Assembly: GCA_019418305.1 (NCBI GenBank)
Contig: DYCA01000032.1
Span: 1-17,801 of the forward strand
DNA length: 17,801 nucleotides
DNA from: Clostridiales bacterium
GTDB lineage: Bacteria; Bacillota; Clostridia; Oscillospirales; Butyricicoccaceae
Reading direction: 5' to 3'
Positions within the stretch are counted from its first letter, which is position 1; every line of letters starts with the position of its first letter. The position numbers were made by a program, and so were the translations under genes. Below the pieces are notes generated by a model that was given only the letters and a program-made list of their open reading frames with translations, was not told where the DNA came from and made no database searches. This document shows, piece after piece, positions 2,671 to 17,747 of this stretch.

Positions 2671-2805
2671 CGAAAATTATTCCTCCTCTCTTCTGTGAAC
2701 CGCTCCAGATGCGCTTGCGGACGCTGTGCTTGGTCATTCCGCGCAGCAGGCATTGCGTTCCAAGTCATCGAACACCTAAGTCCCATGAAAATTTGAATTT
2801 TACGA
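2671..2805. other. Gene-free stretch before the terminators
   Basis: The 135 bases after sdaAA hold no convincing ribosome site or protein. They are probably the 3' untranslated part of the serine operon. I see no other structure here. Confidence 0.5.
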
Positions 2806-2840
2806 AGCCTGGCGTTTGTCAACGCCAGGCTTTATTTTTT
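2806..2840 (+). terminator. Intrinsic terminator of the serine operon
   Basis: A perfect 11-bp stem (AGCCTGGCGTT with AACGCCAGGCT) with a four-base loop TGTC is followed by TTATTTTTT. This is a strong rho-independent terminator placed 135 bp after sdaAA. Confidence 0.93.
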
Positions 2841-2861
2841 GTATACAGTCGCATTTTCTAC

Positions 2862-2888
2862 AACGCCGCCATTCGGCAGCGTTTTTTA
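2862..2888 (+). terminator. Second intrinsic terminator
   Basis: AACGCCGCC pairs with GGCAGCGTT around an ATTC loop with one mismatch, and a run of T follows. It lies about 20 bp after the first terminator. Confidence 0.75.
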
Positions 2889-2933
2889 TATGCAATCGAG
2901 AAGCATGCCCGCTCCAACTATCATGATACATAT

Positions 2934-2973
2934 AAAAAAAGAGATTCCCATTTTATCGGGAATCTCTTTTTTT
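2934..2973. terminator. Third, bidirectional terminator
   Basis: A perfect 16-bp stem runs from seven A plus GAGATTCCC to GGGAATCTC plus seven T, with an eight-base loop. A-tract and T-tract on the two sides let it work in both directions. It seals off the csrA-tldR-flagellin locus from the serine operon. Confidence 0.9.
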
Positions 2974-3005
2974 GCGCACATTTTCGACGGTTTAAACCCG
3001 CAGTC

Positions 3006-3022
3006 TGTTACAAAAAGTATAG
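3006..3022 (+). repeat. Left copy of an imperfect 17-bp inverted repeat upstream of csrA
   Basis: TGTTACAAAAAGTATAG. The reverse complement of 3142-3158 reads TGTTCCTAAAAGTATAG, 15 of 17 identical. This left copy also sits inside its own palindrome (GTTACAAAAA, six bases, TTTTTGTAAC, 3007-3032). It could be an operator half, a recombination site or part of a stem. Confidence 0.6.
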
Positions 3023-3053
3023 TTTTTGTAACGCTAAAAATACAGCATTACTT

Positions 3054-3086
3054 TTGACATCTATTGATTAAATCGGATGTTTAATC
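3054..3086 (+). promoter_or_regulatory. Possible promoter and operator region of csrA-tldR
   Basis: A perfect TTGACA (3054-3059) could be a -35 box, but no good -10 box lies 16-18 bp away; TTTAAT at 3080-3085 is 20 bp away, so the promoter call is weak. GATTAAA (3066-3072) and TTTAATC (3080-3086) form a 7-bp inverted repeat with a 7-base centre, an operator candidate. Confidence 0.35.
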
Positions 3087-3141
3087 GAAAAGTTAAGACT
3101 GTTTTTTAAAAAAAATCAAAATTGGGAGCATGCCCCAAAAG

Positions 3142-3158
3142 CTATACTTTTAGGAACA
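3142..3158 (-). repeat. Right copy of the 17-bp inverted repeat upstream of csrA
   Basis: CTATACTTTTAGGAACA on the plus strand, the inverted partner of 3006-3022 with two mismatches. It ends 20 bp before the csrA ribosome site. The 119 bp between the copies contain the TTGACA box and the small operator-like repeat. Confidence 0.6.
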
Positions 3159-3178
3159 ATATCCAGATATTAGAGCCA

Positions 3179-3187
3179 AGAGAGGGG
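3179..3187 (+). promoter_or_regulatory. Ribosome-binding site that fixes the csrA start at GTG 3194
   Basis: AGAGAGGGG lies just before the GTG at 3194. Starting there puts the conserved CsrA sequence V(M)LSLQIKSGE at residue 1, as in the family. The upstream TTG at 3122 has no comparable site and would add 24 unrelated residues. Confidence 0.75.
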
Positions 3188-3193
3188 TACATC

Positions 3194-3682
3194 GTGCTTT
3201 CATTGCAAATCAAATCGGGAGAATACATCACCATCGGTGAAAACGTGGTCATTCAGGTGTTCCAGCGCTCAGGTTCCCAATTTCGGCTTGCAATTCAAGC
3301 GCCCCGGGAACTGCCCATCATGCGCGGAGAAGTGCGTGAGCGAGACGGTTCTCCCCGACCGGAAAGCGTAGGTGAATTTTTCGATAGACAGGAAGCACGC
3401 AAACGTGCCAAGCATGTGCGGCGTCTTGCCGCCCAACGGAAGGCAGCTGCGACACGCGCGGACGCAGTGCAGCAGCTTCGGACAATTTTGGATGAGTTAG
3501 AATCGCTGCCGGAGGTTCAGCAGGCCGCACGCGCGCAGCTCAAGCGGCTTGAACTTGCCGAAACCAGTATGGGACAAGGAGGTGCGGCACCCGATGGCAC
3601 AGAGTCAAAACGGAATCATCATCCGCAACACCACCATCAAAGTGCAGCTCTATCCCACACCTGCACAGGCGACGCTGTTTGA
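3194..3682 (+). CDS. csrA: CsrA-like RNA-binding regulator with a long C-terminal extension
   Basis: Likely mRNA-binding translational regulator. Residues 1-50 align without gaps to CsrA: LSLQIKSGEYITIGENVV matches LILTRRVGETLMIGDEVT, and APRELPIMRGEV matches APKEVSVHREEI. The RNA-contact residues L4 and R44 are kept, R7 is lysine, but R6 is isoleucine. CsrA is normally 60-75 residues; this protein has 162. The extra 100 residues are basic and helix-prone, rich in Arg, Ala and Gln, with a likely coiled-coil at about residues 62-115. The last 29 codons overlap the next gene in another frame. In Bacillus, CsrA blocks flagellin translation; this gene sits two genes before a flagellin whose leader has a CsrA-type hairpin. 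No fliW, the usual antagonist, is visible. CsrA homology is clear by eye; the role of the tail is unknown. Confidence 0.85.
   Translation: MLSLQIKSGEYITIGENVVIQVFQRSGSQFRLAIQAPRELPIMRGEVRERDGSPRPESVGEFFDRQEARKRAKHVRRLAAQRKAAATRADAVQQLRTILDELESLPEVQQAARAQLKRLELAETSMGQGGAAPDGTESKRNHHPQHHHQSAALSHTCTGDAV
3576..3583 (+). promoter_or_regulatory. Ribosome-binding site that fixes the tldR start at ATG 3594
   Basis: AAGGAGGT, a near-perfect site 10 bases before ATG 3594, lies inside the csrA coding sequence. It shows that translation starts at MAQSQNG rather than at the earlier ATG 3549. The 89-bp overlap suggests the two proteins are made from one transcript. Confidence 0.85.
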
Positions 3683-4766
3683 TAAAACCTTCGATTGCTG
3701 CCGCTATCTGTGGAACCGGATGCTGACCGATCAGGCGCGATTTTATGCGGAAACCGATGTACATTTCATCCCTACCCCAGCCAAATACAAAAAAAGTGCA
3801 CCTTTTTTGAAAGAAGTTGATTGCGGCGCACTGATTTCGGTGCATCAGAACCTGCGTCGCGCTTTTCAGCAGTTTTTCGATCATCCGGATCGTTTTCGGC
3901 ATCCTGCCTACAAAAAGAAGAAGCATTGCAAAAGCAGCTATACCATCTATTGCCAATACTACCCGTCCGGAAAAGGCGCAAGCATCTATCTGACGGACAA
4001 CGGAATCCGACTTCCCAAGGCCGGAATCGTAAAAGCCAGATTATACCGCAAGCCGCTGCATTGGTGGAAGCTCAAAACTGCGACGGTCAACAAAAGCCCG
4101 TCCGGCAAGTACTTCTGCTCATTGACATTTGAGTATGCGGTAAAACCACCCAAAACGGTACAACCGACACAGGAAACCACGCTGGGACTGAATTATTCCC
4201 TGTCCCATTTTTACATAGACAGCAACGGACGCGCCGCTGATGCACCGCACTGGATACACCGCTCGCAAGACAAGCTCGGGCGGATGCAAAAGCGGCTTGC
4301 ACAGATGCAGCGCGGCTCAAAAAACTACGAGCAGCAGCTTCACAGGCTTCAGTGCCTGTATGAGCACATCGCCAACCAGCGAAAAGATTTCATTCACAAG
4401 GAGAGCCGGCGGATAGCCAACGCCTGGGACGCCGTGTGTGTGAAAGATACCGATATGGTGGAGATGTCGCAGACGCTCCAACTCGGCAATGTGATGGATG
4501 CGGGCTATGGACAATTCCGCACATACCTGCAATACAAGCTGGAACGTATGGGTAAGCCGTATATCATGGTGGAAAAATACTTCCCATCCGCCAAGACCTG
4601 CCACCGCTGCGGTGCAGTCAACGATGCGCTTGCCGCAGATGCACGTCGATGGCAATGCCCTTCCTGCGGTGCAGTGCTTATGCGCGCCAGCAATGCCGCA
4701 GAAAACCTGCGGAATCAGGGCCTCGCACAATATTACGAAAACCAAGGTCGGCGCATTCCCGCCTGA
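3594..4766 (+). CDS. tldR: Nuclease-dead TnpB homologue (TldR-type), candidate RNA-guided repressor
   Basis: Related to IS200/IS605 TnpB, RNA-guided nucleases with a RuvC domain. The 390 residues carry the N-terminal TnpB pattern (KVQLYPTPAQATLFDKTFDCCRYLWN, split here only by description), a WWKLKTATVNKSPSGKYF segment, the RuvC region and an intact zinc ribbon (C336, C339, C355, C358). All three catalytic acids are lost. In RuvC-I the GIDLG aspartate is N200 (LGLNYSLSHF). In RuvC-II the glutamate of IEDL is K284 (VCVKDTDM). In RuvC-III the DRDxNAAxN aspartate is A365 (RASNAAEN). These positions correspond closely to D191, E278 and D361 of ISDra2 TnpB. The frame is otherwise intact, so this looks like selection for a DNA-binding role, not decay. 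No TnpA is present. Nuclease-dead TnpB proteins that repress flagellin genes (TldR) are known in enterobacteria; the flagellin next door fits. Actual target unknown. Confidence 0.88.
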   Translation: MAQSQNGIIIRNTTIKVQLYPTPAQATLFDKTFDCCRYLWNRMLTDQARFYAETDVHFIPTPAKYKKSAPFLKEVDCGALISVHQNLRRAFQQFFDHPDRFRHPAYKKKKHCKSSYTIYCQYYPSGKGASIYLTDNGIRLPKAGIVKARLYRKPLHWWKLKTATVNKSPSGKYFCSLTFEYAVKPPKTVQPTQETTLGLNYSLSHFYIDSNGRAADAPHWIHRSQDKLGRMQKRLAQMQRGSKNYEQQLHRLQCLYEHIANQRKDFIHKESRRIANAWDAVCVKDTDMVEMSQTLQLGNVMDAGYGQFRTYLQYKLERMGKPYIMVEKYFPSAKTCHRCGAVNDALAADARRWQCPSCGAVLMRASNAAENLRNQGLAQYYENQGRRIPA

Positions 4767-4980
4767 CTTTCTCACAGAACCATCATACCGGTCGGGACAC
4801 CGGTGTATGCCCATTCGCTTGCGGCGCGGAGGCGTTGATCGGATCGAAAGAGTCCTATCTTCCGATGCGATCAGCGTTTCCGACGCAGCCGATGGGAACA
4901 AAAGACGGCAACCCGCTGCGTTTCACGGCGGCGCGCCCGAAGCCCGTATTTTCGGGCAGTCCACGAGAATCCAACATAAT
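4767..4980 (+). ncRNA. Candidate guide RNA (omega-RNA-like scaffold plus guide) for the dead TnpB
   Basis: TnpB and TldR proteins use an RNA made from the 3' end of their gene and the bases beyond it. This stretch has no credible protein and is rich in local pairing: TGATC (4836-4840) with GATCA (4869-4873), ACGCAGC (4883-4889) with GCTGCGT (4915-4921), GGG (4894-4896) with CCC (4912-4914), and a last hairpin GCCCG (4942-4946), TATTTT, CGGGC (4953-4957). GAAGCCC-stem-GGG-AGT is the usual look of an IS605-type right end just before the guide. The guide would then begin at about 4958-4963 (AGTCCACGAGAATCC and on). The exact RNA ends are not visible in the sequence; scaffold boundaries are inference. 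Confidence 0.55.
4950..4962 (+). repeat. First copy of a 13-bp direct repeat (scaffold end / guide region)
   Basis: TTTCGGGCAGTCC, identical to 5035-5047 and in the same orientation, 85 bp apart. This copy forms the 3' arm of the last hairpin of the candidate guide RNA and the first bases after it. Confidence 0.8.
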
Positions 4981-5002
4981 TTTGTTTTCATCCGGCCGAC
5001 GG
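4977..5002 (+). promoter_or_regulatory. Possible sigma-28 (SigD) flagellin promoter
   Basis: TAAT (4977-4980), 15 bases, then CCGACGG (4996-5002) resembles the SigD pattern TAAA-N14/16-CCGATAT with three mismatches overall. It would start flagellin mRNA near 5010, leaving a leader of about 130 bases. GCCGA-CGGG-TCGGC in the same place also forms a small hairpin, so the match is only suggestive. Confidence 0.35.
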
Positions 5003-5034
5003 GTCGGCTGAAATAGATTACATGCGCCAATAGA

Positions 5035-5047
5035 TTTCGGGCAGTCC
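5035..5047 (+). repeat. Second copy of the 13-bp direct repeat, in the flagellin leader
   Basis: TTTCGGGCAGTCC, 94 bp before the flagellin ATG and flanked by AATAGA on its 5' side. Same strand and direction as the copy in the candidate guide RNA, which is the geometry expected of a guide and its protospacer, but other origins are possible. Confidence 0.8.
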
Positions 5048-5089
5048 GGCCGGTTGCCTGAGACCCGGCGGCGCTCCACGACCTGTGCT

Positions 5090-5108
5090 GGGGCAAAAGG
5101 ATGGCCCT
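5090..5108 (+). promoter_or_regulatory. CsrA-type hairpin in the flagellin 5' leader
   Basis: GGGC (5091-5094) pairs with GCCC (5104-5107), extended by a G-T pair, and the nine-base loop is AAAAGGATG. CsrA prefers ANGGA shown in a hairpin loop, and CAAAAGGATG is close to its high-affinity consensus. A second AGGA lies in the flagellin ribosome site AGGAGG (5127-5132), 33 bp further on. Two sites, one upstream and one over the ribosome site, is the arrangement known for Bacillus hag. Confidence 0.6.
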
Positions 5109-5140
5109 GTCACATTAATCAGATTTAGGAGGAACCTAGT

Positions 5141-7231
5141 ATGCGTATTCAACACAACATTATGGCGATGAACGCCTACCGCAACTACTCAACTAACACC
5201 AGCGCGCTCTCCAAGAACCTGGAGAAGCTGTCTTCCGGTTACAAGATTAACCGCGCAGGCGATGACGCTGCCGGCCTTGCCATTTCCGAAAAGATGCGTG
5301 CGCAGATTACCGGCCTGGAAACCGCGCAGAAGAACGCGAAGGACGGCATCTCCCTCGTGCAGACCGCTGAAGGTGCGTTGACCGAAGTACATGACATGCT
5401 CAACCGTATGGTCGAGCTGGCGAACCAGTCCGCAAACGGCACTTACGACAACGACACCGACCGCGCCAACCTGCAGAAGGAAGTTGACCAGCTGCTGGAG
5501 GAAATCGACCGCATCGCCGATTCCGCAAATTTCAACGGCATCAACCTGCTCGATGGCACCATGTCCTCCGGCACCGTAAAGGCCAGCTACAATGCCCTGA
5601 GCGCTGCCGACATCAAGGGTCTGCTGCTGCCCGAGGCTGCTGCCAGCACAGCCGGCGTCGCTGGCACCAACACCATGCTGGAGACCAATGCCGATGCAGG
5701 CCAGCTGCCCTCCTTCTCGGTTGAACTGGACGGCCTGAGCCATATCGTAAAATCCGTAGCTACCGACACCTTTACGCTTACCATCGGCGGTCAAACGGCT
5801 TCGATTGCTGCGGGTGCATTCAATACTGCTGGATATAAGTACGGCGACAAGCTGGAAGCCTCCGATCTCGCTGAACTACTCGACGGCAAGCAGGTTACTC
5901 TGGACGGTATTGCTTACACCGCCAAGGCAAACGGTTCCAAGCTGGAATTCACCGCTGATGCTGTACCCGATAAGTCTATCAACGCGCACTATGACGTAAG
6001 CTTCACGGGTGTGAAGGGAAGCACGGTCGCCGCTACTTCCGGCGTTTACACCACCGGTGCCTATACTGCAGGCGGTGTTTCTACCAGAGACGCTGCCATG
6101 GAAGTCACTATTCAGCTGACGGACGGCAAGAGCTTGACCTTTAAGGCTGCAAGTCTGGCTCAGAACGCTACTATTGGCACCATCAAAACTGCGCTCCAAG
6201 CTGCTACTGCAAGCGTGGACGGCAAGACGTATAAGCTGAGTGATTACTTCACTGTTGGCACTGCTACGAACACGCTCACGTTCACCAGCGTAGAGAAGGG
6301 CGCCAATACCGCCAAGGTCACCAATGTTGCATATACCAAGGGCACTGGCACTGGCACAATGGCTGCTGCAGCCTCTACCGCTTGGGTTGCCGGCGCAGAC
6401 GCTTATGACAATGGTACCAGCGGCTCGATTAACGTCGGCTCGGTCAATATTGTGGTCAACGATCTGGTTACGCCGAATCAGCTGGCCAACACCGTGCTCG
6501 ACCTGTCCGGCAAGCTCACCGACGGCAGCAAGATCACACTGGGCGACCAGACCTATACCATCGCTGTCGGCGATGACAGCGCATTTGCTAATGTCTCTGG
6601 TGCGGTAAAGGTAGACGCTAACGCTACCGAGGAAGAAATCGCAAGCGCTCTGACTCAGGCTGCTAAGGATAACACCACCTTCTCGGTTGGTCATGTTGCC
6701 AACACCGGCAAGATCAGCCTGCAGCAGCTCCAGTCCGCTAAGGACTCCACTGATATGACCACCATGGATAAGCTGGCCAGCTATATTGGTGTGTCTACCG
6801 TGGATACCACCAAGGGCGAACCGATTGTCGGTAAGGGCCTGACCCTCCAGATCGGTGACACGAGCGATGATTTCAACCAGCTCACCGTAGACATTCAGGA
6901 CATGCACGCCAATTCCCTCGGCATTGCGGGCCTGAATATCAGCACGCAGGACGGTGCACAGGCTGCGGTTGACACCATCAAGAATGCGATCAACACCGTA
7001 TCCTCTGTCCGCGGTACGCTGGGCGCTACCCAGAACCGTCTGGATCACACCATCAACAACCTGTCCGTCATGACGGAGAACATTCAGGATGCTGAGTCCA
7101 CCATCCGCGACACCGACGTTGCCGACGAGATGATGGCTTACACCAAGAACAACATTCTGGTTCAGTCTGCTCAGGCAATGCTGGCGCAGGCAAATCAGGT
7201 TCCGCAGGGCGTTCTGCAGCTGCTGCAGTAA
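5141..7231 (+). CDS. fliC: Flagellin
   Basis: Filament protein (also called hag in Firmicutes), exported and polymerised outside the cell. The first 140 residues are the D0/D1 region (MRIQHNIMAMNAYR start, LSSGYKINRAGDDAAGLAIS motif, ANFNGINLLDG end). The last 110 residues are the matching D1/D0 region, ending in the family-typical QAMLAQANQVPQGVLQLLQ. The middle (about residues 145-585) is a variable domain rich in Ser, Thr, Ala and Gly, and I see no cysteine in the protein. At 696 residues it is much longer than the 270-500 common in Firmicutes, so surface domains are large and offer many O-linked modification sites. The ribosome site is AGGAGG 8 bases before ATG. The gene lies between a CsrA/dead-TnpB pair and a putative modification cassette. 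Confidence 0.97.
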   Translation: MRIQHNIMAMNAYRNYSTNTSALSKNLEKLSSGYKINRAGDDAAGLAISEKMRAQITGLETAQKNAKDGISLVQTAEGALTEVHDMLNRMVELANQSANGTYDNDTDRANLQKEVDQLLEEIDRIADSANFNGINLLDGTMSSGTVKASYNALSAADIKGLLLPEAAASTAGVAGTNTMLETNADAGQLPSFSVELDGLSHIVKSVATDTFTLTIGGQTASIAAGAFNTAGYKYGDKLEASDLAELLDGKQVTLDGIAYTAKANGSKLEFTADAVPDKSINAHYDVSFTGVKGSTVAATSGVYTTGAYTAGGVSTRDAAMEVTIQLTDGKSLTFKAASLAQNATIGTIKTALQAATASVDGKTYKLSDYFTVGTATNTLTFTSVEKGANTAKVTNVAYTKGTGTGTMAAAASTAWVAGADAYDNGTSGSINVGSVNIVVNDLVTPNQLANTVLDLSGKLTDGSKITLGDQTYTIAVGDDSAFANVSGAVKVDANATEEEIASALTQAAKDNTTFSVGHVANTGKISLQQLQSAKDSTDMTTMDKLASYIGVSTVDTTKGEPIVGKGLTLQIGDTSDDFNQLTVDIQDMHANSLGIAGLNISTQDGAQAAVDTIKNAINTVSSVRGTLGATQNRLDHTINNLSVMTENIQDAESTIRDTDVADEMMAYTKNNILVQSAQAMLAQANQVPQGVLQLLQ

Positions 7232-7273
7232 GCATAGCGGTTCCACACGGATTCAAAAACACCCGATGTATGT

Positions 7274-7299
7274 GGGGGCTGGGTTTCTGCCCGGCCCCC
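7274..7299 (+). terminator. Hairpin after flagellin, weak or partial terminator
   Basis: GGGGGCTGGG pairs with CCCGGCCCCC (one G-T pair) around TTTCTG. It is very stable, but followed by CTTCTATATGG rather than a clean T run. It may stabilise the abundant flagellin mRNA 3' end or end most transcripts while letting some pass to the next gene 32 bp on. Confidence 0.65.
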
Positions 7300-7330
7300 C
7301 TTCTATATGGTGAAATAAGGAGAACTCGTC

Positions 7331-9325
7331 ATGACAAAAACCCTCTTGCTGGCCCGAAAGCTGGTGCAGCTGAACAAAAAGGAAGCAGCGATGCAAGCCT
7401 ACTTCCTGGCACTTGAGAAAGTGGAAGAACTGGAACCGCAGGAAGAACTGGAGGCTGCCTCCTATATTTTTTTCGCCGAGGGAGACTATAAAATCTCCTT
7501 TACAACCTTTGTATCTCTATATAACCGAGGGCTGTTTCAGGCAGATCTGATGAATCTGATGATGCAGGCCTTTTATCTGCCCAATGTCCAGAAGCAGAAA
7601 AAGCTCTATGAACGTAACTGCCGCGCGCTGGGCCGCTATCCTTACCTGTTTCAAAAGGATTTTCCGGCCTTTGATTCGCTGCCCATTCTGTTTTTTCCCT
7701 TTGACGACAAGGGATATGTCCCCTATTTTAAGGCCGAAAACCGGTTTGGCGAGTATGTCAACTTTGACAATCCGGTGATTGACCGATACTTCTTTCAAGA
7801 TTTGGAAAACCCCATCCTTGCCAAGGATGTTTATTCTCAATATCAACTGGAATATTTATATGACAACGTGCGCAAAAGCGAATGGGTAGGCCGGGAGAAT
7901 CACATCTACCTGCACTATACCGATTGGATGCAATTTTGCGCGTATCTCCAATGTTTGGATTTTTCCGGGCTGCTGAAAGATAAAAAGTTTGTCTTTCTGA
8001 TGGAGGAGGAAATCAGCCAATATCCCATCGACTTTCAGGCTCGTTTCGGCATTGATTACAGCCAATTTTCCGTCAAGCCGATTGGAATCCGGGAAGTGCA
8101 TCGACTCATCTGGCACACGCAGCTCTCCACCCATAACGGCGGCGACTTTTTCAACGAAATTCTCTATGGACACCCCAATCTTCTTGCGTATGAATCCGTC
8201 ATGTTTGATAAAATGGAAGAGCTGATTCATCAGCAGCGCGAACAGGCAAAGGACGTGTCCCTCAAAAGCCCCTCTTATATCGTGCGGGAGCTGGCGCAGA
8301 TCCCTAACCCGACGGATAAAGACTGTCTGGTGACACTTTTCTTAAATTCCGATACCGTCAGCGGCGATATCCGCGGCAATTCCCGCATTGTCCCGGCGCT
8401 GCTGTTCCAGCCCCACTTTTCCAATGTCCTGTGCCGCATTGACTATGACCAGCCGAAAAATCAGGCGATCCTCACGTCGGATATTTATCAAAAGATCTCC
8501 CATTCTCCCCTGTTCCGCCAATTCAAATACATCAAGACATTCACGCCAATTCGGCGCCCTACCACCAGCTATGGCGCTACCGTGCGTTTTATGAGCAAAA
8601 GAACAGAGGAAGAGGGAAAAAAGCACGTCATCACGGATGTGTTTACAGAACGTCTGCTGAACCGCACTTTCATGGTGGATCAATGGGATCGACTTTTCCG
8701 GGATAGCATGCTGGTGCGGTTTGAGGACGGGAAACTCAATCCCCAAGCCACATTTACCGCTTTGGCAGAATTTCTCGACATTCCCTATACCGAAAGCATG
8801 ACCTACTGCTCCGGGCAAAGCGGACTGAACCCGGAATCCCTGCCGGGCAACGATCTGGGCTTTGACCCTGCCGCAATTTACCGTACCTATGATGAATATG
8901 TCAACGATGACGACCGTTTCCTGCTGGAGTATTTCATGCGGGATATATACGAAACATACGGTTATGACTTTCACTATTATCATGGCGAAACCGTGGATAT
9001 GGAGCTGATAAACGAAAAGCTGAAAGGCTTTCAGCATTTGGACCATGCCATCTTCCAGTCTTATAAGGATGCTACCGAACGAAATTTTAAGGATGCTACC
9101 GAACGAAATTTTGCGGTCATTTGCGATGATGAAGTCGTAAGGTCCACAGAGCAAAGCGATCGCATCGCGCAGGAGTACCTGGAGCGCTATGCCAAGAATC
9201 GCATGCGGGTGATCGGCATGCTGATGCAGACGCCCCAATTTGTCAACGCCAATGCCCAGCCGCTGCGTCTGATGAAAAAACTGAAGCTCAATCCGGCGCT
9301 GCTGGAGCAGCCTGTGTATCACTAA
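7331..9325 (+). CDS. Large protein with sulfotransferase-like C-terminal motif, putative flagellin-modifying enzyme
   Basis: I do not recognise a named family for the whole 664-residue protein. The first 110 residues are helical and TPR-like (KKEAAMQAYFLALEKVEEL, EGDYKISFTTFVSLYNRGL). From about residue 340 it resembles sulfotransferases: LFLNSDTVSGDIRGNSRI could hold the nucleotide loop, though the classic PRSGTS signature is absent. Residues 458-482 (DSMLVRFEDGKLNPQATFTALAEFLDIPY, a known VRYEDL-type 3'-phosphate element) are the clearest hint. No signal peptide or membrane span is visible, so it is probably cytosolic. AAGGAG stands 8 bases before ATG. The next gene makes a 3'-phosphonucleotide donor, which supports a transferase. 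A perfect 24-bp tandem duplication adds eight residues at 579-594. A glycosyltransferase role remains possible. Confidence 0.6.
   Translation: MTKTLLLARKLVQLNKKEAAMQAYFLALEKVEELEPQEELEAASYIFFAEGDYKISFTTFVSLYNRGLFQADLMNLMMQAFYLPNVQKQKKLYERNCRALGRYPYLFQKDFPAFDSLPILFFPFDDKGYVPYFKAENRFGEYVNFDNPVIDRYFFQDLENPILAKDVYSQYQLEYLYDNVRKSEWVGRENHIYLHYTDWMQFCAYLQCLDFSGLLKDKKFVFLMEEEISQYPIDFQARFGIDYSQFSVKPIGIREVHRLIWHTQLSTHNGGDFFNEILYGHPNLLAYESVMFDKMEELIHQQREQAKDVSLKSPSYIVRELAQIPNPTDKDCLVTLFLNSDTVSGDIRGNSRIVPALLFQPHFSNVLCRIDYDQPKNQAILTSDIYQKISHSPLFRQFKYIKTFTPIRRPTTSYGATVRFMSKRTEEEGKKHVITDVFTERLLNRTFMVDQWDRLFRDSMLVRFEDGKLNPQATFTALAEFLDIPYTESMTYCSGQSGLNPESLPGNDLGFDPAAIYRTYDEYVNDDDRFLLEYFMRDIYETYGYDFHYYHGETVDMELINEKLKGFQHLDHAIFQSYKDATERNFKDATERNFAVICDDEVVRSTEQSDRIAQEYLERYAKNRMRVIGMLMQTPQFVNANAQPLRLMKKLKLNPALLEQPVYH
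9065..9112 (+). repeat. Perfect 24-bp tandem duplication inside the putative sulfotransferase gene
   Basis: Two identical 24-base units (9065-9088 and 9089-9112), each coding KDATERNF in frame. The identity at the DNA level points to a recent slippage event. Confidence 0.97.
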
Positions 9326-9337
9326 GGAGGGGCGGTA

Positions 9338-10492
9338 ATGGAAAACAAGGGAACGGTTTACTTTTTTACCGGCCTGTCAGGCGCGGGTAAAACCACGGTC
9401 GGCGGCCTGTTTTACCGCCGCTTGAAAGCCACAAAATCCAACGCGATTTATCTGGATGGCGACGAAATCCGCGTGGCCTTCGGCGAGGATGTGGGATATA
9501 CGCAGGAAGAACGTCTGCGCTGGGCAGGGCGCATTTTCCGTGTATGCAAACTGCTTTCCGATCAGGGCATCGATGTGGTGTGCTGCTCCATAGCCATGTT
9601 TGACTCTGTGCGCTGCTGGAACCGGGCCAATATTCCCAACTACAAAGAAATTTATATTCGGGTCAAAAAAGAAACGCTCATGCAGCGCAACCAGAAGGGC
9701 CTGTATACCGCGGGCAAGAATGTAGTGGGCGTGGATTTGCCCTTTGATGAACCCAGGCATCCGGATCTCATCCTTCAAAACGACGGAGACTGCACGCCTT
9801 TGGAGCTAGTCGAGAACATCGAACGCGTTTTTTATCCCAACATCGTCGAGAATCCCATTGATAACACTGCGTACTGGAACCAATATTATCACAATCGTAT
9901 TTGCTCAACGGCGCCTTCACCTTTTGCACAGTATGTCGCCACATTGGTGGAGCCGGGCAAGACGCTGGTCGATTTAGGCTGCGGTAACGGACGGGATGCG
10001 TTGTTCTTTGCAAAACAGGGAATACAGGTAGTGGGAATTGATTTGTCTCACTCCGCCATTGACCAGCTCAATCAACAGCCCGCAAAAAACGCACGTTTTC
10101 TGTGCAGCGACTTTATTGCAAGCGACACGTATCAATCGGAGAGCTACGACTATGCCTACAGCCGTTTTACCATTCACGCCATCAACCAAAAGCAGGAGGC
10201 TATGCTGCTGCAAGCCATGTTCCGTGCGCTGAAACAGGGTGTAAAGTTCTTTATCGAAGTGCGCAGCGTCAATGATCCTTTATACGGCAAAGGCAAGGCA
10301 GTGGAGCGCAACGCATTCTTTTATGACAATCACTATCGCCGTTTTATCGTTCGGGATGAGCTGGTGGGTTCACTGGAAAAACGAGGTTTCCGTGTGGAAT
10401 ATGCCAGAGAGCAAACCGGTTTTGCGCCCTATGGCAATGACGATCCGCCGGTCATCCGCATTGTGGCGGTCAAACCTCAGAACGAGGTGTAA
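9338..10492 (+). CDS. CysC-like nucleotide 3'-kinase fused to a SAM-dependent methyltransferase
   Basis: Two-domain enzyme of 384 residues. Residues 1-170 are CysC-like: Walker A G12-LSGAGKT-T20, LDGDEIR at 39-45, and QKGLY near residue 122. CysC phosphorylates adenylylsulfate to PAPS. The FISPYR segment of true CysC is AMFDSVR here, as in kinases from surface-polysaccharide clusters; one such protein, Campylobacter Cj1415, was shown to phosphorylate CDP-phosphoramidate instead. Residues 185-384 are a class I methyltransferase with motif I VDLGCGNG at 211-218 and GIDLSHSAI after it. Fusion of the two is unusual. AAGGAGG overlaps the stop of the upstream gene, 7 bases before ATG, and a PHP phosphatase begins 3 bp after the stop. 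Likely supplies an activated group for flagellin decoration. Domain calls are firm; substrate is open. Confidence 0.85.
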   Translation: MENKGTVYFFTGLSGAGKTTVGGLFYRRLKATKSNAIYLDGDEIRVAFGEDVGYTQEERLRWAGRIFRVCKLLSDQGIDVVCCSIAMFDSVRCWNRANIPNYKEIYIRVKKETLMQRNQKGLYTAGKNVVGVDLPFDEPRHPDLILQNDGDCTPLELVENIERVFYPNIVENPIDNTAYWNQYYHNRICSTAPSPFAQYVATLVEPGKTLVDLGCGNGRDALFFAKQGIQVVGIDLSHSAIDQLNQQPAKNARFLCSDFIASDTYQSESYDYAYSRFTIHAINQKQEAMLLQAMFRALKQGVKFFIEVRSVNDPLYGKGKAVERNAFFYDNHYRRFIVRDELVGSLEKRGFRVEYAREQTGFAPYGNDDPPVIRIVAVKPQNEV

Positions 10493-10495
10493 GCG

Positions 10496-11317
10496 ATGGT
10501 GCAGATGGTTGACCTTCATACCCACTCCACGGCCTCCGACGGTCAGTATTCCCCCTCATGTCTGGTGCAAAAGGCCAAAAAAGCCGGTATCGGCGTCATG
10601 GCTCTTACCGACCATGACACGGTCGCTGGTGTAGAAGAAGCATGTCATGCCGGACTACGATGCGGTATAACCGTTTTGCGCGGGGTGGAGCTGGGCGCCA
10701 AAGAGGATCGGCATATGCACATTCTGGGGCTGGGTTTTCGCTCCGACTGTACACAGCTGACTCTGCTGTGTCAAAGGCTTCAGGATGGACGAGAGGAGCG
10801 GAAATACCGCATCATCGACTTTCTTCACGAAAAAGGGATTACTATTTCACTGGAAGAAGTAGAAACGCTGGCCGGCGGCAACATCATCGCCCGTCCCCAC
10901 TTTGCTCAGGTGATGCTCCGCCGAGGCTATGTCTCCTCCATTCGTGAGGCATTTGACCGCTATCTGGATACGGATGAGTATCAACGTATTGAACGTTTTA
11001 AAGCGGATGCCCGCACCTGTATTGACGTTATCCATCAAGACGGCGGCAAAGCAGTTCTGGCTCACCCCTATCAGCTGGGCTTTTCTTCCGAGAAGCTGGA
11101 TGCCACCCTTCACTGGCTGAGGAACTGCGGCTTAGACGCTTTGGAATGCTATTATCCGCGCCATACGTCAGAGATGGTACAAGCATATCTGAAGCTCGCC
11201 CAGCGATATGAACTCCATGTGAGTGCCGGCAGCGATTTTCACGGCCCCCAAGTTCGTCCGGACACATTGTTAACACCTACCCCATTAGAAAGCAACTGGT
11301 TTATGGAGAATACGTAG
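10496..11317 (+). CDS. PHP-domain phosphoesterase of the TrpH/YciV type, probable 3',5'-nucleoside bisphosphate phosphatase
   Basis: Metal-dependent phosphoesterase of 273 residues. All PHP metal motifs are present: D6-L-H8-T-H10, TDHD at 38-41, GVE (E65), RHMHILG (H75), LAHPYQ and SAGSDFHG near the C-terminus. The family includes enzymes that remove the 3'-phosphate from pAp and short 5'-phosphorylated RNAs (RNase AM). It follows the kinase-methyltransferase gene by 3 bp with GAGGTG as ribosome site, so it is surely co-transcribed. That position suggests it clears the pAp-like by-product left when a sulfotransferase uses PAPS. ATG 10505 is an alternative start. Family is sure; the recycling role is inference from context. 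Confidence 0.85.
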   Translation: MVQMVDLHTHSTASDGQYSPSCLVQKAKKAGIGVMALTDHDTVAGVEEACHAGLRCGITVLRGVELGAKEDRHMHILGLGFRSDCTQLTLLCQRLQDGREERKYRIIDFLHEKGITISLEEVETLAGGNIIARPHFAQVMLRRGYVSSIREAFDRYLDTDEYQRIERFKADARTCIDVIHQDGGKAVLAHPYQLGFSSEKLDATLHWLRNCGLDALECYYPRHTSEMVQAYLKLAQRYELHVSAGSDFHGPQVRPDTLLTPTPLESNWFMENT

Positions 11318-11432
11318 ACATGTCTGGCACAGTATACGCTTGAAAGGAAAAACTGCATTTCCCTCTTGATGCATCTATACTTGTATTTTCTGAGCTTGCA
11401 GCGGCCGATTGCTACTGCAAAAGAGATTTGGT

Positions 11433-11469
11433 AAAAAAGAGCAAGCAGCAACTGCTGCTTGCTCTTTTT
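11433..11469. terminator. Bidirectional intrinsic terminator
   Basis: AGAGCAAGCAGC pairs with GCTGCTTGCTCT around AACT, extended by five A-T pairs; T-runs stand on both strands. It ends the flagellin-modification operon on the plus strand and the relic genes on the minus strand. Confidence 0.92.
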
Positions 11470-11479
11470 GGATTCCGGC

Positions 11480-11703
11480 AGTTGTATCCCCAATCCTCGC
11501 GTACAATCTCTGCTGCGCAGTGACGGTAATTGTTCATCGGTCCCTTCGTGCTTCGCCATGGAAAACATCATTTGGTCCAATTTCTCCTGTGCGTTTTCCT
11601 CTACCTATGCTGGGGTTGGGTCGTGATATTGCTTACCGTCCGTTCCGATATGACATTATCTGCCCTCATGCAACGCTTCGTTCAACTTCTCCTGTATGTT
11701 CAT
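11480..11703 (-). pseudogene. Decayed mobile-element fragment, TnpV-like
   Basis: On the minus strand a ribosome site AAGGAG precedes ATG 11703, but the frame stops after 15 codons (MNIQEKLNEALHEGR). Further on, EENAQEKLDQMMFSMAKHEG from 11601 and, in another frame, MNNYRHCAAEIVREDWGY from 11537 recall the C-terminal part of TnpV, a small protein of clostridial conjugative or mobilisable elements (the ..QMEWVRRMNNIRxRAEEIV region). The order is right but frames are broken and the middle is missing, so it is a relic. The family guess rests on memory of the motif and is tentative. Confidence 0.35.
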
Positions 11704-12115
11704 ACAGGTCATCTCCTTCTTTGGATGAATCAATGCTGTAGCTGAACCGTAATAAATCCTGTATATCTGTTCTAGATCGGTATATTTCCATGTGTTCTAT
11801 TGGAACGCATGGGTTCTTCTCCAAACGGACAACTCGTATCATCCACCAAACCTTCCGGCAGAACGCCCGTTGGAACCTCAGTATCACGTTGCAAAATCGA
11901 AAGGGCAGGCTGACGACATAAGCGGCACAATCCCCTCTTGCGGAATATGCTGCGTTTACAATAGCTTCAGAGTACATACGCTGACGCTTGGTTTCACCTA
12001 CTTGTATCTGATCACATAGAATCTCAAAAGTAAGGTTGATAATTCTTGGAAAATCTTTGTTGCTATAGTCTTTGTCTATGGTAATCCACTTTAAGGATTC
12101 TGTTTGGATTTTCAT
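11666..12115 (-). CDS. Small hypothetical protein, possibly a mobile-element relic
   Basis: I do not recognise this 149-residue protein. Support for it being a real gene is the ribosome site AAAGGAGA 6 bases before ATG 12115. In addition a 42-codon frame (12112-12240, minus) ends in an ATGA overlap with this start, a sign of translational coupling. It begins MKIQTESLKWITIDKDYSNK and is basic, with several Cys and Trp residues (FCRKVWWMIRVVRL). Its last 13 codons run over the ribosome site and start of the TnpV-like relic, so its C-terminal end may be the result of a frameshift. No homologue function is offered. Confidence 0.4.
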   Translation of the reverse strand: MKIQTESLKWITIDKDYSNKDFPRIINLTFEILCDQIQVGETKRQRMYSEAIVNAAYSARGDCAAYVVSLPFRFCNVILRFQRAFCRKVWWMIRVVRLEKNPCVPIEHMEIYRSRTDIQDLLRFSYSIDSSKEGDDLYEHTGEVERSVA

Positions 12116-12161
12116 ACGACTTCTCCTTTGAGCAAAATCCTTATTTCGATACTGCCGCTTC

Positions 12162-12189
12162 TTGCGGTCTGCAAAATCTGTGATAGAAT
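12162..12189 (+). promoter_or_regulatory. Likely sigma-A promoter of the RpiR regulator gene
   Basis: TTGCGG (12162-12167), 16 bases, then TAGAAT (12184-12189) preceded by TGA, an extended -10 element. The leader to the ATG would be about 155 bases. Confidence 0.5.
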
Positions 12190-12352
12190 AAAGGTGCTCC
12201 TAGCGTTCAGCCCTTTCTGTCGGAGTTGGTGTGAGAACATTAATTCCAACAGATACCTGATTGCCGAGGAGCGTTTTATGCGTTCAATTTCATTTTATAA
12301 TTTACCCATTTATCGTTTGTCGCAAACCGACACAAAAAAAGGAGGGTTTGTC

Positions 12353-13165
12353 ATGGGCATGCTCTTCCACCGTCTGTTGATTATTCTCAACGAGGAAGAA
12401 GCGGACTCCACCTATTATCACATTGCGGTTGTCATGCTGCAAAATTTTGACGCGCTGCAGCATTACTCCATCAGCGAGTTGGCGGCGGCCTGTATGGTTT
12501 CAAAATCCACGATCTCCAAATTCATCCGTTATATCGGATATGAGGACTTTGCCGAGTTCCGTGATGCATCGGTATTTCTAGACAACAAATACCACAACCA
12601 GTTCAACTATGTAACCAACGTGATGGACTACATCCGGGATAACTCCCTTGACTCCTATATGCTCACCGTGCAGCAGGATATTGGCGAAACCTACCGCTCG
12701 CTGGACTGGGGCGCGGTGGATCATCTGGTACGGGATCTGGCGCACTATCAACGGATCGGCGCGTTTGGCCTGATGTTTTCCGAAACGGCTGCGCTGGATT
12801 TCCAGATCAAGCTGGCATACAACAAAAAATTCATTGTCACTAATCTGAATGATCTCAAGCAGGACAACTTTATCCAAAACGCTGGAGATGATGTACTAAT
12901 CATCGTATTCAGTGATTCCGGCGAGTTTCTGGACAAATACCAGCAGATCGACGATTTTGCCAACAAGCGCGCCTTTTCATGCACGCACGCCAAAGTCGTT
13001 GTTATCACCTCTAACCCGCAAATCGAGCACGACCCGCGGGTGGCCTATTGTGTTCGCTATCAGAAAACTCGCTCTCTGTGCACCCACCGCATGGTATATG
13101 GGGTGCTTACGGATATCATCGCCTATAAGTACCGAGAGTATGTGCAGAAAAACCAAAATATTTGA
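12353..13165 (+). CDS. RpiR/MurR-family transcriptional regulator
   Basis: Cytosolic DNA-binding regulator that senses a phosphorylated sugar. The start at ATG 12353 (MGMLFHRLL) is chosen because AAAGGAGGG lies just before it; the frame is open 83 codons further up without a site. Of 270 residues, about 35-70 form the N-terminal helix-turn-helix (YSISELAAACMVSKSTISKFIRYIGY), and about 125-240 a SIS sugar-phosphate domain (IGAFGLMFSETAALDFQIKL, DVLIIVFSDSGEFLD). A GH1 6-phospho-beta-glucosidase and PTS permease follow on the same strand, so beta-glucoside 6-phosphate is a likely effector. Beta-glucoside operons in Firmicutes are more often run by LicT/BglG antiterminators; none is seen here. 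Activator or repressor cannot be told from sequence. Confidence 0.88.
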   Translation: MGMLFHRLLIILNEEEADSTYYHIAVVMLQNFDALQHYSISELAAACMVSKSTISKFIRYIGYEDFAEFRDASVFLDNKYHNQFNYVTNVMDYIRDNSLDSYMLTVQQDIGETYRSLDWGAVDHLVRDLAHYQRIGAFGLMFSETAALDFQIKLAYNKKFIVTNLNDLKQDNFIQNAGDDVLIIVFSDSGEFLDKYQQIDDFANKRAFSCTHAKVVVITSNPQIEHDPRVAYCVRYQKTRSLCTHRMVYGVLTDIIAYKYREYVQKNQNI

Positions 13166-14797
<1,632 letters not shown>

Positions 14798-14818
14798 AGG
14801 GAGAGGGGGAAAAGAATC

Positions 14819-16684
14819 ATGGCGGCAAATTTGAACTATACAGAAATGGCGCATGATATCGTCCGGCTGGTCGGCGGTGCGGAGAATGTCGTTTCGCTGG
14901 GTCATTGCATGACACGTCTGCGCTTTGTGCTCAAGGATGAGAGCCATGCTGATACCGAACAGATCAAAGCTGTCAAAGGCGTTCTGGGCGTCGTTTCGGC
15001 TGGCGGACAGTATATGGTCATTCTAGGGCAGAACCTGCTGCCGGTCTATGAAACAGCGATCCGCGATTTCCATTTGAATGCCGGAGCGACGACAACGGAA
15101 AATCTGGACGCCAAAAAGCAGTCGCTCACCCTGAAAACCGCCGTGCTGGGCGCGCTGGGTTATGTATCCGGCGCGGTGGCTTCCATGCTGCCCGGTCTGG
15201 TCGCAGGCGGTATGCTCAAGGTCGTCCTGCTGCTGATTACGCTGGTGAACAGCGGTTTTGCAGATTCAACCACCTATGGTGTGCTCAGCGGCGTAGCAGA
15301 TGCGGCATTTTTCTTCATGCCGATTTTTGTGGCCTACGGCGCGGCCTCCAAGCTGGGTGCGACCCCCATTTATGCCATGATTGCGGCGGCAGCGCTACTA
15401 CACGGCAATTACACCGCACTCGTCACTGCCGGTGAACCTGTCACTTTTTTGGGTCTGCCGCTGTGGCTTGCGTCCTACTCCAGTTCCCTGCTGCCCGCGC
15501 TTCTGATCTCGCTGCTGGCCTTCTACATGGAGAAATTCTTCAACAAAATCATCCCCGGTATTTTCAAGTCGCTTCTAGTCGGGCTTTGCACCGTCACGGT
15601 GACCGCCTGCATCGGTTTTCTAGCACTTGCGCCGCTGGGTGGATTTCTGGGCACCTACCTTGCCAAAATCTTTGTATTCCTTGGCGATAATATTGGCTTT
15701 GTGGCAGTCGGTGCGCTGGCGGCCTGCCTGCCGTGGCTGGTCATGTGCGGTATGCATACGGCGCTAGTGCCTTTTATGACGCAAGCCCTTGTGGAGCCAG
15801 GCTATGATTCGATTTTCCGTCCCGCTTTCATCCTGCATAACATGGCCGAGGGCGGCGCTTGTATTGGCGTTGGACTGCGCGCTAAAAATGCGGATCAGCG
15901 TTCTGAAGCACTGGGTATCGCCTTTGGCTGTATCGTAGCCGGCGTAACCGAACCGGCGATCTACGGCATCAACCTGCCGCGTAAAAAGCCAATGATCGGC
16001 GTGATGGTCGGCGGCGCGGCGGGCGGCATTGTTGCGGCACTGTTGGGTGCGCGTGTGTACATTATGGGCTATTCGACCCTGCTGGCGCTGCCGATCTTCC
16101 AAGATACGATTATCGCTGCGGCGGCGGCAATCGCTGTGGCTATCATTGTATCGGCAGTGGTCACCTTCCTGATCACGTCGGATGCTGATTCCTCGATCAA
16201 CACAACGCAGGACACCGATACGCTTGCCCTCGCCCCCACATCGGATAACATGCTGACCGCGCCGGTAAACGGCGAGATGGTGGATATCGCCACCGTTAGC
16301 GATAAGACCTTTGCGGACAAGATTTTGGGCGATGGCGTTGCCTTTGCGCTCGAAGACGGTCTCATTACCGCACCTTGCAACGGCACAATCGGTATGCTGG
16401 CTGATACCGGACACGCTTTCGGCATGACGCGCACAGACGGCGTAGAGGTATTGGTACACGTTGGGATCAACACGGTCGAGCAAAATGGCAACGGATTTAC
16501 GCTTCTGGCGGCCGAGGGCGACACCGTGCAGGCCGGACAACCCATCCTTCGCGTGGATGTGGATATGCTGCGCAACAAGGGCTATGATATGACGACAATG
16601 TTAATCGTCACCGAGCCTGCGGGTAAAACGATCGCGTTTGTTCCGTTCGGCAAGGTCGACCGTGGACAGGTCATTACGAAATAA
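14819..16684 (+). CDS. bglF: PTS beta-glucoside-specific permease, EIIBCA
   Basis: Membrane transporter that phosphorylates a beta-glucoside during uptake, 621 residues, in the B-C-A domain order of BglF/BglP. EIIB (about 1-85) has its phosphorylated cysteine at C30 in GHCMTRLRF. EIIC (about 100-455) is strongly hydrophobic with the CGMHTALVPF and GVTEPAIYGI segments. EIIA (about 480-621) has both conserved histidines 15 residues apart, H532 in GHAFGM and H547 in VLVHVGI, as in IIA-Glc. A purine-rich GGGAGAGGGGG site precedes the ATG. The product sugar-phosphate would be handed to the GH1 enzyme encoded just upstream. All catalytic residues are intact; the sugar is inferred from family only. 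Confidence 0.95.
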   Translation: MAANLNYTEMAHDIVRLVGGAENVVSLGHCMTRLRFVLKDESHADTEQIKAVKGVLGVVSAGGQYMVILGQNLLPVYETAIRDFHLNAGATTTENLDAKKQSLTLKTAVLGALGYVSGAVASMLPGLVAGGMLKVVLLLITLVNSGFADSTTYGVLSGVADAAFFFMPIFVAYGAASKLGATPIYAMIAAAALLHGNYTALVTAGEPVTFLGLPLWLASYSSSLLPALLISLLAFYMEKFFNKIIPGIFKSLLVGLCTVTVTACIGFLALAPLGGFLGTYLAKIFVFLGDNIGFVAVGALAACLPWLVMCGMHTALVPFMTQALVEPGYDSIFRPAFILHNMAEGGACIGVGLRAKNADQRSEALGIAFGCIVAGVTEPAIYGINLPRKKPMIGVMVGGAAGGIVAALLGARVYIMGYSTLLALPIFQDTIIAAAAAIAVAIIVSAVVTFLITSDADSSINTTQDTDTLALAPTSDNMLTAPVNGEMVDIATVSDKTFADKILGDGVAFALEDGLITAPCNGTIGMLADTGHAFGMTRTDGVEVLVHVGINTVEQNGNGFTLLAAEGDTVQAGQPILRVDVDMLRNKGYDMTTMLIVTEPAGKTIAFVPFGKVDRGQVITK

Positions 16685-16716
16685 GATTCCCCTTTCTGCC
16701 AAGTTGACGGCAGCTA

Positions 16717-16757
16717 AAAGGCTCGGCGCAAAAATGCGTCGAGCCTTTCCTTTTATT
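16717..16757 (+). terminator. Intrinsic terminator of the beta-glucoside operon
   Basis: AAAGGCTCGGCGCA pairs with TGCGTCGAGCCTTT (one G-T pair) around AAAA, then CCTTTTATT. It lies 32 bp after the permease gene. Confidence 0.88.
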
Positions 16758-16890
16758 CTATACGAATATCTACTACATCAGAAAACCTGTATAGCTAATA
16801 AATCCATACGATATCGCTTTCTATACCAAGTACAGCACTGCTATGCCACACTTGCAGCTGCCGAAACAAAATTGTTCCATTGGGGTTTAG

Positions 16891-17618
16891 GAACGAATAG
16901 GACAGGCAGACAAATACGCCGCAGCAAACGAGAAAATCAATACCATTTACCACGAAAACAAAGGACGGTATGGGTATTGGCGTATCATGACAGCATTGAA
17001 TAGCCGTGGATTTCACTTCAATCACCAGACTGTTCAGCGACTGATGAAAGAGCTGAGCTTAGTCTGCCGTGTCAGGACAAAGAAATATTGCTCTTACAAG
17101 AGAGAAGTGGGCAAGAACGCACCCAATCTGCTCAACTGAGACTTTCGTGCCAAAAAACCAAACGAGAAGTGGGTCACCGATGTGACAGAATTCAGCCTGT
17201 TCGGACAGAAGCTGTATCTTTCGCCGGTTCTGGATTTACACAGCCTCTGTCTGGTTAGCTATACAATCTCTGAGCGGCCCACATCCAGTATAGTGACAAC
17301 CATGCTCAGCAAGGCTTTTGAAGCAATCCCGGATGGAACTGGACTAATTCTCCACTCTGCTCAGGGATGACAGTACCAGCACAAACCGTATCAGCGAATG
17401 CTCAAAGCAAAAGGCAACTGCCTGGATAATGCGGTAATGGAAAACTTCTTTGGACTTCTCAAAATGAGCTGTTATATCTGCAAGAATTTCAGTCTGCGAA
17501 TCACTTTAAACAAGAACGAATTGACTATCTGGACTATTACAACAACCGGCGTATTAAAGAAAGGTTTAAGGGCTTGCCGCCTGCGATTTACAGACAACAA
17601 GCCCTTTCAGTTGTTTGA
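16891..17618 (+). pseudogene. IS3-family transposase orfB (integrase core), inactivated
   Basis: The reading ERIGQADKYAAANEKINTIY, then HENKGRYGYWRIMTALNSRG matches the orfB HTH_21 region, and NEKWVTDVTEF opens the DDE core. Damage is threefold. TGA (near 17138) interrupts NLLN-DFRA. TGA (17368-17370) replaces the Trp of the usual HSDQGWQYQH, here HSAQG-QYQH, so the second catalytic Asp is also Ala. A one-base loss near 17480 shifts the frame: NCLDNAVMENFFGLLK is followed in the next frame by ELLYLQEFQSANHF and YYNNRRIKERFKGLPP, ending at TGA 17618. The N-terminus is missing. This is old, non-functional IS debris. Confidence 0.92.
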
Positions 17619-17659
17619 ACAATTCTTTCTTCAAAAGATTGTCTAACTTTTTTGGGGCA
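16891..17659 (+). mobile_element. IS3-family remnant with intact right end
   Basis: The stretch holds a broken orfB-type transposase and ends at 17659 with TGTCTAACTTTTTTGGGGCA (17640-17659). This is the typical ..CA right terminal repeat of the IS150/IS3 type, whose left partner would begin TGCCCC and A-rich. No orfA and no left terminal repeat are found upstream, so the left half is lost. The element is not mobile. Confidence 0.85.
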
Positions 17660-17705
17660 CTTCACATGCCTTTCCTATTGCATATTCAGCAAGTTGCACA
17701 AAAAG

Positions 17706-17741: not shown

Positions 17742-17747
17742 AGACTC

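Follow-up and report, generated by a model that had tools for sequence, protein, structure and literature searches.

The question raised by this locus is what a csrA-like gene, a tnpB homologue and a flagellin gene do when they stand in one line. The locus lies in a stretch of 17,801 nucleotides (nt), referred to as a whole as the window, from a Clostridiales bacterium (GenBank assembly GCA_019418305.1, contig DYCA01000032.1). It is likely to be a csrA-tldR-flagellin cassette: its TnpB homologue, a guided TldR, would silence other flagellins, CsrA would restrain translation and the cassette would supply a flagellin of its own. It is probably phase-variable, that is, a flagellin-replacement cassette that can be switched. 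What can be read from the DNA is the gene order, the loss of all three RuvC residues, a predicted guide-RNA scaffold that covaries, a guide that spells flagellin start codons and the synonymous differences from it in the cassette flagellin. The genes of the cassette are as follows.

3194..3682, plus strand: csrA-like gene, GTG start, 162 amino acids, with a C-terminal extension (Pfam CsrA, E 9e-16)
3594..4766, plus strand: tldR, a TnpB homologue, ATG start, 390 amino acids, RuvC residues lost (three TnpB Pfam domains)
5141..7231, plus strand: cassette flagellin, 696 amino acids, flagellin N and C domains, first codons synonymously unlike the guide

On the plus strand csrA is followed by tldR, a 374-nt gap and the flagellin gene. 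An earlier note on this DNA, the initial annotation, had described a CsrA homologue overlapping an intact TnpB and a flagellin gene downstream on the same strand; both were borne out, by an 89-nt overlap, by the Pfam CsrA and TnpB domains and by the N and C domains of the flagellin. A paper of May 2026 (Nat Microbiol, PMC13418256) described csrA-linked TldRs of gut commensals, and its methods take as a criterion that csrA and fliC lie within 3 kb of tldR. In the window both lie inside this distance, the fliC start being 374 nt behind tldR. As csrA-TldR-fliC loci were already published, the window is a further member, and the view that a combined CsrA-TldR unit in Clostridia would be largely uncharacterised is outdated. 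According to the same text, RNA immunoprecipitation sequencing (RIP-seq) and chromatin immunoprecipitation sequencing (ChIP-seq) placed guides on fliC open reading frames (ORFs) and CsrA on the fliC 5' untranslated region (UTR), and homologous TldR/CsrA systems bound guide RNA, fliC DNA and the fliC 5' UTR (PMC13418256).

The nearest tldR DNA among the genomes compared was that of an uncultured Agathobaculum metagenome-assembled genome (76%), and the main sample consisted of 87 genomes from the family of this nearest assembly. The TldR search gave 14 matches at 1e-60, in 10 genomes. Eleven of these (8 genomes), L003 and the window form the set of 13 loci used throughout; of the remaining three, G047:C33 and G033 served as outgroups and G047:C104 was left unaligned. 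Protein identity to the window TldR was 49–76% across the 12 other loci. With the window counted, flagellin was downstream in 12/13 loci, the contig of G002c ending after csrA, and csrA adjoined tldR in 10/13, either upstream of it (window, G048, G049, G002a and G003) or between tldR and flagellin (G087a, G087b, G024, G002b and G002c). The two genes also overlap in G048. At three other places csrA is paired with a flagellin gene and no tldR match is present (G049:C33, G049:C56 and G087:C28). An IMG/VR scan gave 16 loci, among them the TldR-like L103, which was looked at and is a fourteenth locus with the order tldR-csrA-flagellin. A search at the level of the order (394 genomes drawn evenly, with no more than 4 candidates per genome scored) yielded at least 10 genomes with a match at 1e-80; G001, G048:C2 and the two loci of G087 scored 667–716 bits and the other matches 275–397 bits, of which G047:C33 alone was inspected. 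The family of G003 (395 genomes, even draw) gave no match at 1e-130 besides G003 itself.

The product of the window tldR scored 218 bits with NCBIfam guided_TnpB, and its nearest solved relatives in the PDB comparison were TnpB-type nucleases. RuvC residues were read by eye in an alignment of the 13 TldR loci with the two distant TnpBs, G047:C33 and G033. The first Asp was replaced by N or K and the Glu by K, R or Q in 13/13 loci, and the last Asp was gone in 12/13, being retained in G087a; both outgroups keep D, E and D. The window TldR is without all three catalytic residues, so that the D-E-D of an active TnpB nuclease is absent and the TnpB is indeed catalytically dead, as first annotated. 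The residues are lost in L103 also. A dN/dS of 0.06–0.10 was obtained for tldR in 7/8 pairs, the eighth not being computable, and of 0.08–0.10 for the window against G001, G009 and G048; dS was 1.6–3.3 and is therefore saturated. Judged by dN/dS, with this saturation of dS, tldR looks to be under purifying selection.

The region behind tldR contains the elements of a predicted guide RNA.

4785..4964, plus strand: predicted guide-RNA scaffold (fold and covariation)
4827..4882, plus strand: scaffold stem-loop, long and imperfect, with 23 predicted pairs; a candidate site for RNase III
4942..4957, plus strand: short hairpin directly before the guide
4965..4980, plus strand: guide GAGAATCCAACATAAT, 16 nt, start placed by eye at the end of the conserved scaffold

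The stretch 4785–4980 folded better than 200/200 shuffles (z -4.5), in agreement with the structured non-coding stretch of the initial annotation, and the leader stretch 4981–5170 was unremarkable, folding no better than shuffles (z -0.4). When the scaffolds of 11/13 loci were aligned, leaving out G002b, whose scaffold is shorter, and G001, whose last hairpin contains an insert, 27 of the 43 predicted pairs showed at least one compensatory change. An Rfam scan at gathering thresholds gave 0 matches. The window scaffold ends in the short hairpin and GGGCAGTCCAC; guide starts were placed by eye at this end in all loci, that of G087b being uncertain by about one base. In L001, at about 3264–3310, a long loop insertion was observed in the last scaffold hairpin preceding the G001 guide. 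In published csrA-TldR loci the guide RNA is cut by RNase III, and the stem-loop 4827–4882 resembles the stem opened by this enzyme in the Oscillibacter guide RNA, as described in the main text of PMC13418256.

The guide GAGAATCCAACATAAT corresponds to the flagellin start codons (AT)G AGA ATC CAA CAT AAT. Allowing one mismatch or none, it was found at 14 places in 9/87 genomes, and the reversed pattern used as a control at 0 places in the 87. Eleven of the places were flagellin starts (one exact, in G047, and ten with one mismatch) and three were guides of other TldRs; four of the genomes with a matching flagellin (G020, G046, G047 and G052) were without a TldR-grade match. For 13/13 guides the best place lay in codons 1–11 of every flagellin from the same genome that has an MRIQHN-type start, adjoining ..AT or ..AC; the atypical flagellin G002_C50 had no such match in codons 1–11. 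The 16-nt registers within the flagellin ORF were nt 3–18 (7 loci), 9–24 (3 loci) and 16–31 (3 loci). Flagellin genes are predicted to be targeted at their first codons, not at the promoter that had initially been proposed as the DNA target. Flagellin starts in 4/25 flagellin loci (L010, L012, L033 and L039) were unrecognised by the script and left out of comparisons. One of these, L033 (G049:C59), is another flagellin gene of G049, which has an in-frame stop close to the start, one internal TAG being counted in the search; it has 3 mismatches to the G049 guide, 1 of them in the first ten.

Two features were found in the leader of the cassette flagellin.

5089..5109, plus strand: GGA hairpin of the flagellin leader, CsrA-site-like (motif and predicted fold)
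5126..5138, plus strand: small predicted hairpin with the Shine-Dalgarno GGAGG in its loop

CsrA and FliW control hag in Bacillus and Clostridioides, where GGA motifs lie near the flagellin Shine-Dalgarno. The window shares the GGA motifs with these systems, whereas its csrA is divergent, tied to tldR and provided with a C-terminal extension; with 37 bits it scored below the 73 bits that NCBIfam sets as its csrA equivalog cut-off. Thirteen CsrA copies entered the alignment: nine belong to tldR loci, three neighbour a flagellin gene that has no tldR, and the last is G002_C270. Six further copies and that of G024 were left out. The conserved Arg of the RNA-binding strand, which we take to be R44 of E. 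coli, was kept in 13/13. GGA was invariant among 8 aligned own-flagellin leaders, that is, leaders of cassette flagellins. GGA hairpins were present in 19/21 flagellin leaders, own and other alike, none being found in the own leaders of G087b and G002a, and exceeded shuffles (0.05 or less) in 9/21. An escape of cassette leaders from CsrA through the lack of a hairpin was considered and rejected, as both kinds of leader carry it.

It is quite possible that CsrA serves the homeostasis of all flagellins, in the manner of CsrA/FliW, and that TldR alone selects which of them is off. The GGA hairpins in own and other leaders fit such a role, as do the csrA-flagellin pairs without a tldR match in G049 and G087 and the tldR-flagellin loci without csrA (3/13). 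The overlap of csrA with tldR in the window and G048 fits it less well, and so does the published CsrA RIP-seq, in which the 5' UTR of the target fliC was among only two regions above 3-fold (PMC13418256, main text).

The reading of the locus as a replacement cassette gains a switch from the DNA upstream of csrA. Here the initial annotation was incomplete, having missed a likely invertible promoter (3006–3158).

3006..3028, no strand: left arm of the inverted repeats that bound the candidate inverton; the 26-bp dyad formed by 3007-3032 alone resembles a hix site by eye
3072..3096, minus strand: sigma-28-like promoter TTAA-N15-TCCGAT, between the repeats and pointing away from csrA
3136..3158, no strand: right inverted repeat of the candidate inverton, pairing with the left arm
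L002 3534-3692, L003 2138-2296, L068 (G002b) and L069 (G002c): tyrosine-recombinase-type repeats with sigma-A-like promoter

The arms in the window pair at 20/23 positions, which was matched by 0/100 resampled sequences. Inverted arms were also computed in G001, G009 and G048, and were recognised by eye alone in G011, G049, G087a and G087b. Within these 8 serine-type loci the sigma-28-like promoter pointed leftward in the window, G001, G009, G048 and G049 and rightward in G087a and G087b; the flank of G024 was too short for comparison. A serine recombinase was located upstream in G001, G048, G011, G087a and G087b, and no invertase was found in the available flank of G009 or G049. Upstream of the candidate inverton of G049 (L067 3281–3310) there is a ten-residue Hin-like scrap (E 0.18), perhaps of a lost invertase, perhaps due to chance. 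A tyrosine integrase takes the place of the serine recombinase in G002a, G003 and G002c. These loci and G002b contain the repeats GATAATACACTATTATC and GATAATAGTGTATTATC, 139–140 nt apart, with a sigma-A-like TTGACA-N17-TATTAT that overlaps one repeat and points rightward in G002a, G003 and G002b and leftward in G002c. The mixed orientation of promoters among loci thus appears to support inversion for both types, and since the window promoter points away from csrA as assembled, the cassette would be OFF. Published loci mostly have hin upstream, and Flavonifractor plautii shows inversions of ~120 bp with a FliA promoter; because hin is described for most loci and not all, an adjacent copy is not required for the class (PMC13418256, main text).

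The proposed mechanism would then run as follows. TldR, without catalytic residues, would carry the guide RNA that is encoded immediately downstream of tldR and be directed by it to the opening codons of other flagellin genes, where it would block transcription. The CsrA-like protein is likely to restrain the translation of flagellin, and the silenced competitor would be replaced by the cassette flagellin. We infer that a Hin-type recombinase from elsewhere may flip the sigma-28 promoter between the inverted repeats; once the promoter is ON, CsrA, TldR, the guide RNA and the replacement flagellin would all come from a single transcript. Salmonella hin-fljBA has an invertible promoter before an alternative flagellin and FljA, the repressor of the other flagellin. 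Hin and the promoter inverton are also mentioned in the main text of PMC13418256. The cassette might work by the same switch logic, with RNA-guided repression by TldR, and CsrA, instead of FljA, and with a different gene order.

A silent relic, locked OFF in the window and without an invertase of its own, is an unlikely explanation. It would suit the promoter that points away and the lack of a recombinase match in the window, but the dN/dS of tldR against G001, G009 and G048 argues for constraint (with dS saturated), the inverted repeats can still pair at most positions, and G009 and G049 have kept open genes and guides with no invertase in their available flank.

The window guide differs from its own flagellin at 2 positions in the first 6 nt, 3 in 10 and 5 in 16, and all the differences are synonymous because both spell MRIQHN. 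Across 12 loci compared, own-flagellin mismatches in the first six were 2 in the window, G009, G048, G087b, G024 and G049, 1 in G001 and G087a, and 0 in G011, G002a, G003 and G002b; in L103 the guide has 6/16 mismatches to its own flagellin. Seven loci with other flagellins allowed a same-genome comparison, which excluded G002_C50 and the flagellins belonging to sister cassettes. The own flagellin was worse matched than the best other in 6/7 loci over 10 nt (1 tie) and in 5/7 over 16 nt (2 ties). Universal sparing of the own flagellin was rejected, given close own matches in some loci and a permutation that was not significant. In this small sample the predicted sparing is a trait of the branch of the window and of some others, not a general one.

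It is doubtful that TldR and CsrA act chiefly on the flagellin of the cassette itself, damping it and not a rival. Such autoregulation would agree with guides that match the own flagellin start at 16/16 in G002a and 15/16 in G003 and G011, and with the GGA hairpin and hairpinned Shine-Dalgarno of the window leader. Against it stand the 5/16 mismatches in the window, two of them in the first six: in Enterobacter TldR, 2-nt mismatches defined a seed of 6 nt, and seed mutations de-repressed FliC (PMC13418256, main text). An IS605-type TnpB, whether decaying or still active, lying beside flagellin by chance is most improbable, for although Pfam and NCBIfam label the tldR product TnpB, the three catalytic residues are gone, there are signs of purifying selection, linkage to csrA and flagellin is conserved and the guides spell flagellin codons in 13/13 loci.

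Several results weigh against the replacement cassette as the preferred reading, and the comparison over 6 nt and an unclear promoter in G011 weaken two of its steps. Over 6 nt the own flagellin was worse matched in only 3/7 loci, with 4 ties; permuting own flagellins among the 12 loci gave P of about 0.16 (10 nt) and 0.30 (16 nt); own mismatches were 0–1 in 16 for G002a, G003 and G011; and the guide of G087a has 4/16 mismatches even to its best other flagellin. TldR homologues kept repression despite natural guide-target mismatches (PMC13418256, main text). The direction of the G011 promoter is unclear, a looser pattern matching both strands, and no recombinase was found in the window by tblastn with two Hin-type queries and one integrase query. 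The best GGA hairpin of the window was reached by 14/100 single-letter shuffles, and since own and other leaders both have such hairpins, CsrA action specific to the rival is not shown by sequence. In 3/13 loci (G001, G009 and G011) csrA is not adjacent to tldR, so that the conserved order of csrA, dead tnpB and flagellin, which the initial annotation proposed to search for, held for flagellin and only in part for csrA. The source organism is known here from the window contig alone and its target flagellin is unseen. Lastly, 7/8 genomes with a full-length match to sdaA/sdaB, the genes upstream of the cassette, are without a flagellin match, G001 alone having one; this absence is soft because several are draft genomes, and motility is patchy among these relatives. 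The dual-level flagellin switch first proposed for the locus nevertheless stands as the best reading and matches the experiments on homologues (PMC13418256, main text).

A broader account may be put forward tentatively, in which the cassette is self-sparing and independent of recombinase type. It would combine a guide on the most conserved codons of other flagellins, synonymous escape of the own flagellin and two inverton builds, one with Hin-type sites and a sigma-28 promoter and one with tyrosine-recombinase-type sites and a sigma-A promoter. The Hin-type build could use an invertase encoded elsewhere in the genome, as it would in the window.

The cassette is set behind two metabolic genes and terminator-like sites.

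ORFs 1119 and 1801, upstream of the cassette: sdaA/sdaB serine dehydratase genes (the first by Pfam, the second by eye)
2804..2833, plus strand: terminator-like hairpin behind sdaA/sdaB, 13 pairs and a T-run
2934..2973, no strand: bidirectional terminator-like 16-nt perfect dyad with A/T tails and a T-run

The upstream terminators of the initial annotation can be recognised in the hairpin and the dyad, although the region's 3 terminator-like sites did not exceed the shuffle mean of 3.2. By sdaA/sdaB DNA the closest genome was G013 (90%), and eight genomes matched full length at 75–90%. The distance from the sdaB terminator to a 55-bp tRNA-Tyr-like stretch is about 0.8 kb in G013 and about 14.9 kb in the window (2838 and 17747), and the cassette therefore lies on a segment absent at that place in G013. 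Window 2839–17746 appears island-like, ending at a truncated tRNA-Tyr-like stretch; this end was identified by eye, because ARAGORN called no tRNA in the window or in L128 2900–3300. Behind the flagellin, window 7331–10492 encodes a 664-amino-acid protein with a very weak C-terminal sulfotransferase match (E 0.14) and an APS-kinase/methyltransferase fusion. The flagellin of G087a is followed by a 670-amino-acid protein (L064 7518–9530) that begins similarly and whose sulfotransferase match is just as weak. Possibly these genes serve to sulfate the flagellin or a glycan on it, using locally produced PAPS. Window 12104–16684 holds a sugar operon, an RpiR-type regulator (Pfam HTH_6) followed by beta-glucosidase and PTS permease ORFs assigned by eye, and the broken reading frames at 16638–17646 are IS3-family transposase-like by eye.

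The tldR-fliCP unit of Enterobacter phage is not known to include csrA. Like the window it has a TldR, a guide RNA and an adjoining replacement flagellin, and unlike it is prophage-borne, with its guide on the host fliC promoter (PMC13418256, main text). The Oscillibacter and Flavonifractor loci of that paper share with the window csrA, a RuvC-mutated TnpB homologue and fliC, a guide RNA downstream of tldR that has a long stem of the RNase III type and a guide inside fliC ORFs, a GGA motif in a fliC-leader hairpin, and an upstream candidate inverton with a FliA-type promoter. The GGA motif belongs to the UTR of the target fliC in those loci and to the leader of the cassette flagellin in the window. 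The window further differs from them in having no adjacent hin, a start-codon guide that mismatches the cassette flagellin, and another lineage; the four tyrosine-type relatives differ in their repeats and sigma-A-like promoter. The main text of PMC13418256 names neither Agathobaculum nor Butyricicoccus, and a term search of it found 'tyrosine recombinase', 'synonymous' and 'own fliC' absent and 'start codon' in a figure legend alone. No second paper on csrA-TldR loci was found among the titles and abstract openings listed. Set beside that main text, the start-codon guide with synonymous own-flagellin mismatch, in some branches, and the tyrosine/sigma-A version seem to be added here.

CsrA-TldR flagellin switches are thereby extended beyond the genera in the main text of PMC13418256 to an Agathobaculum/Butyricicoccus-type family. 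They offer a testable rule, namely that synonymous seed codons could let a cassette silence rival flagellins while sparing its own, and the exchange of recombinase and promoter would suggest that selection keeps the switching logic and not one enzyme.

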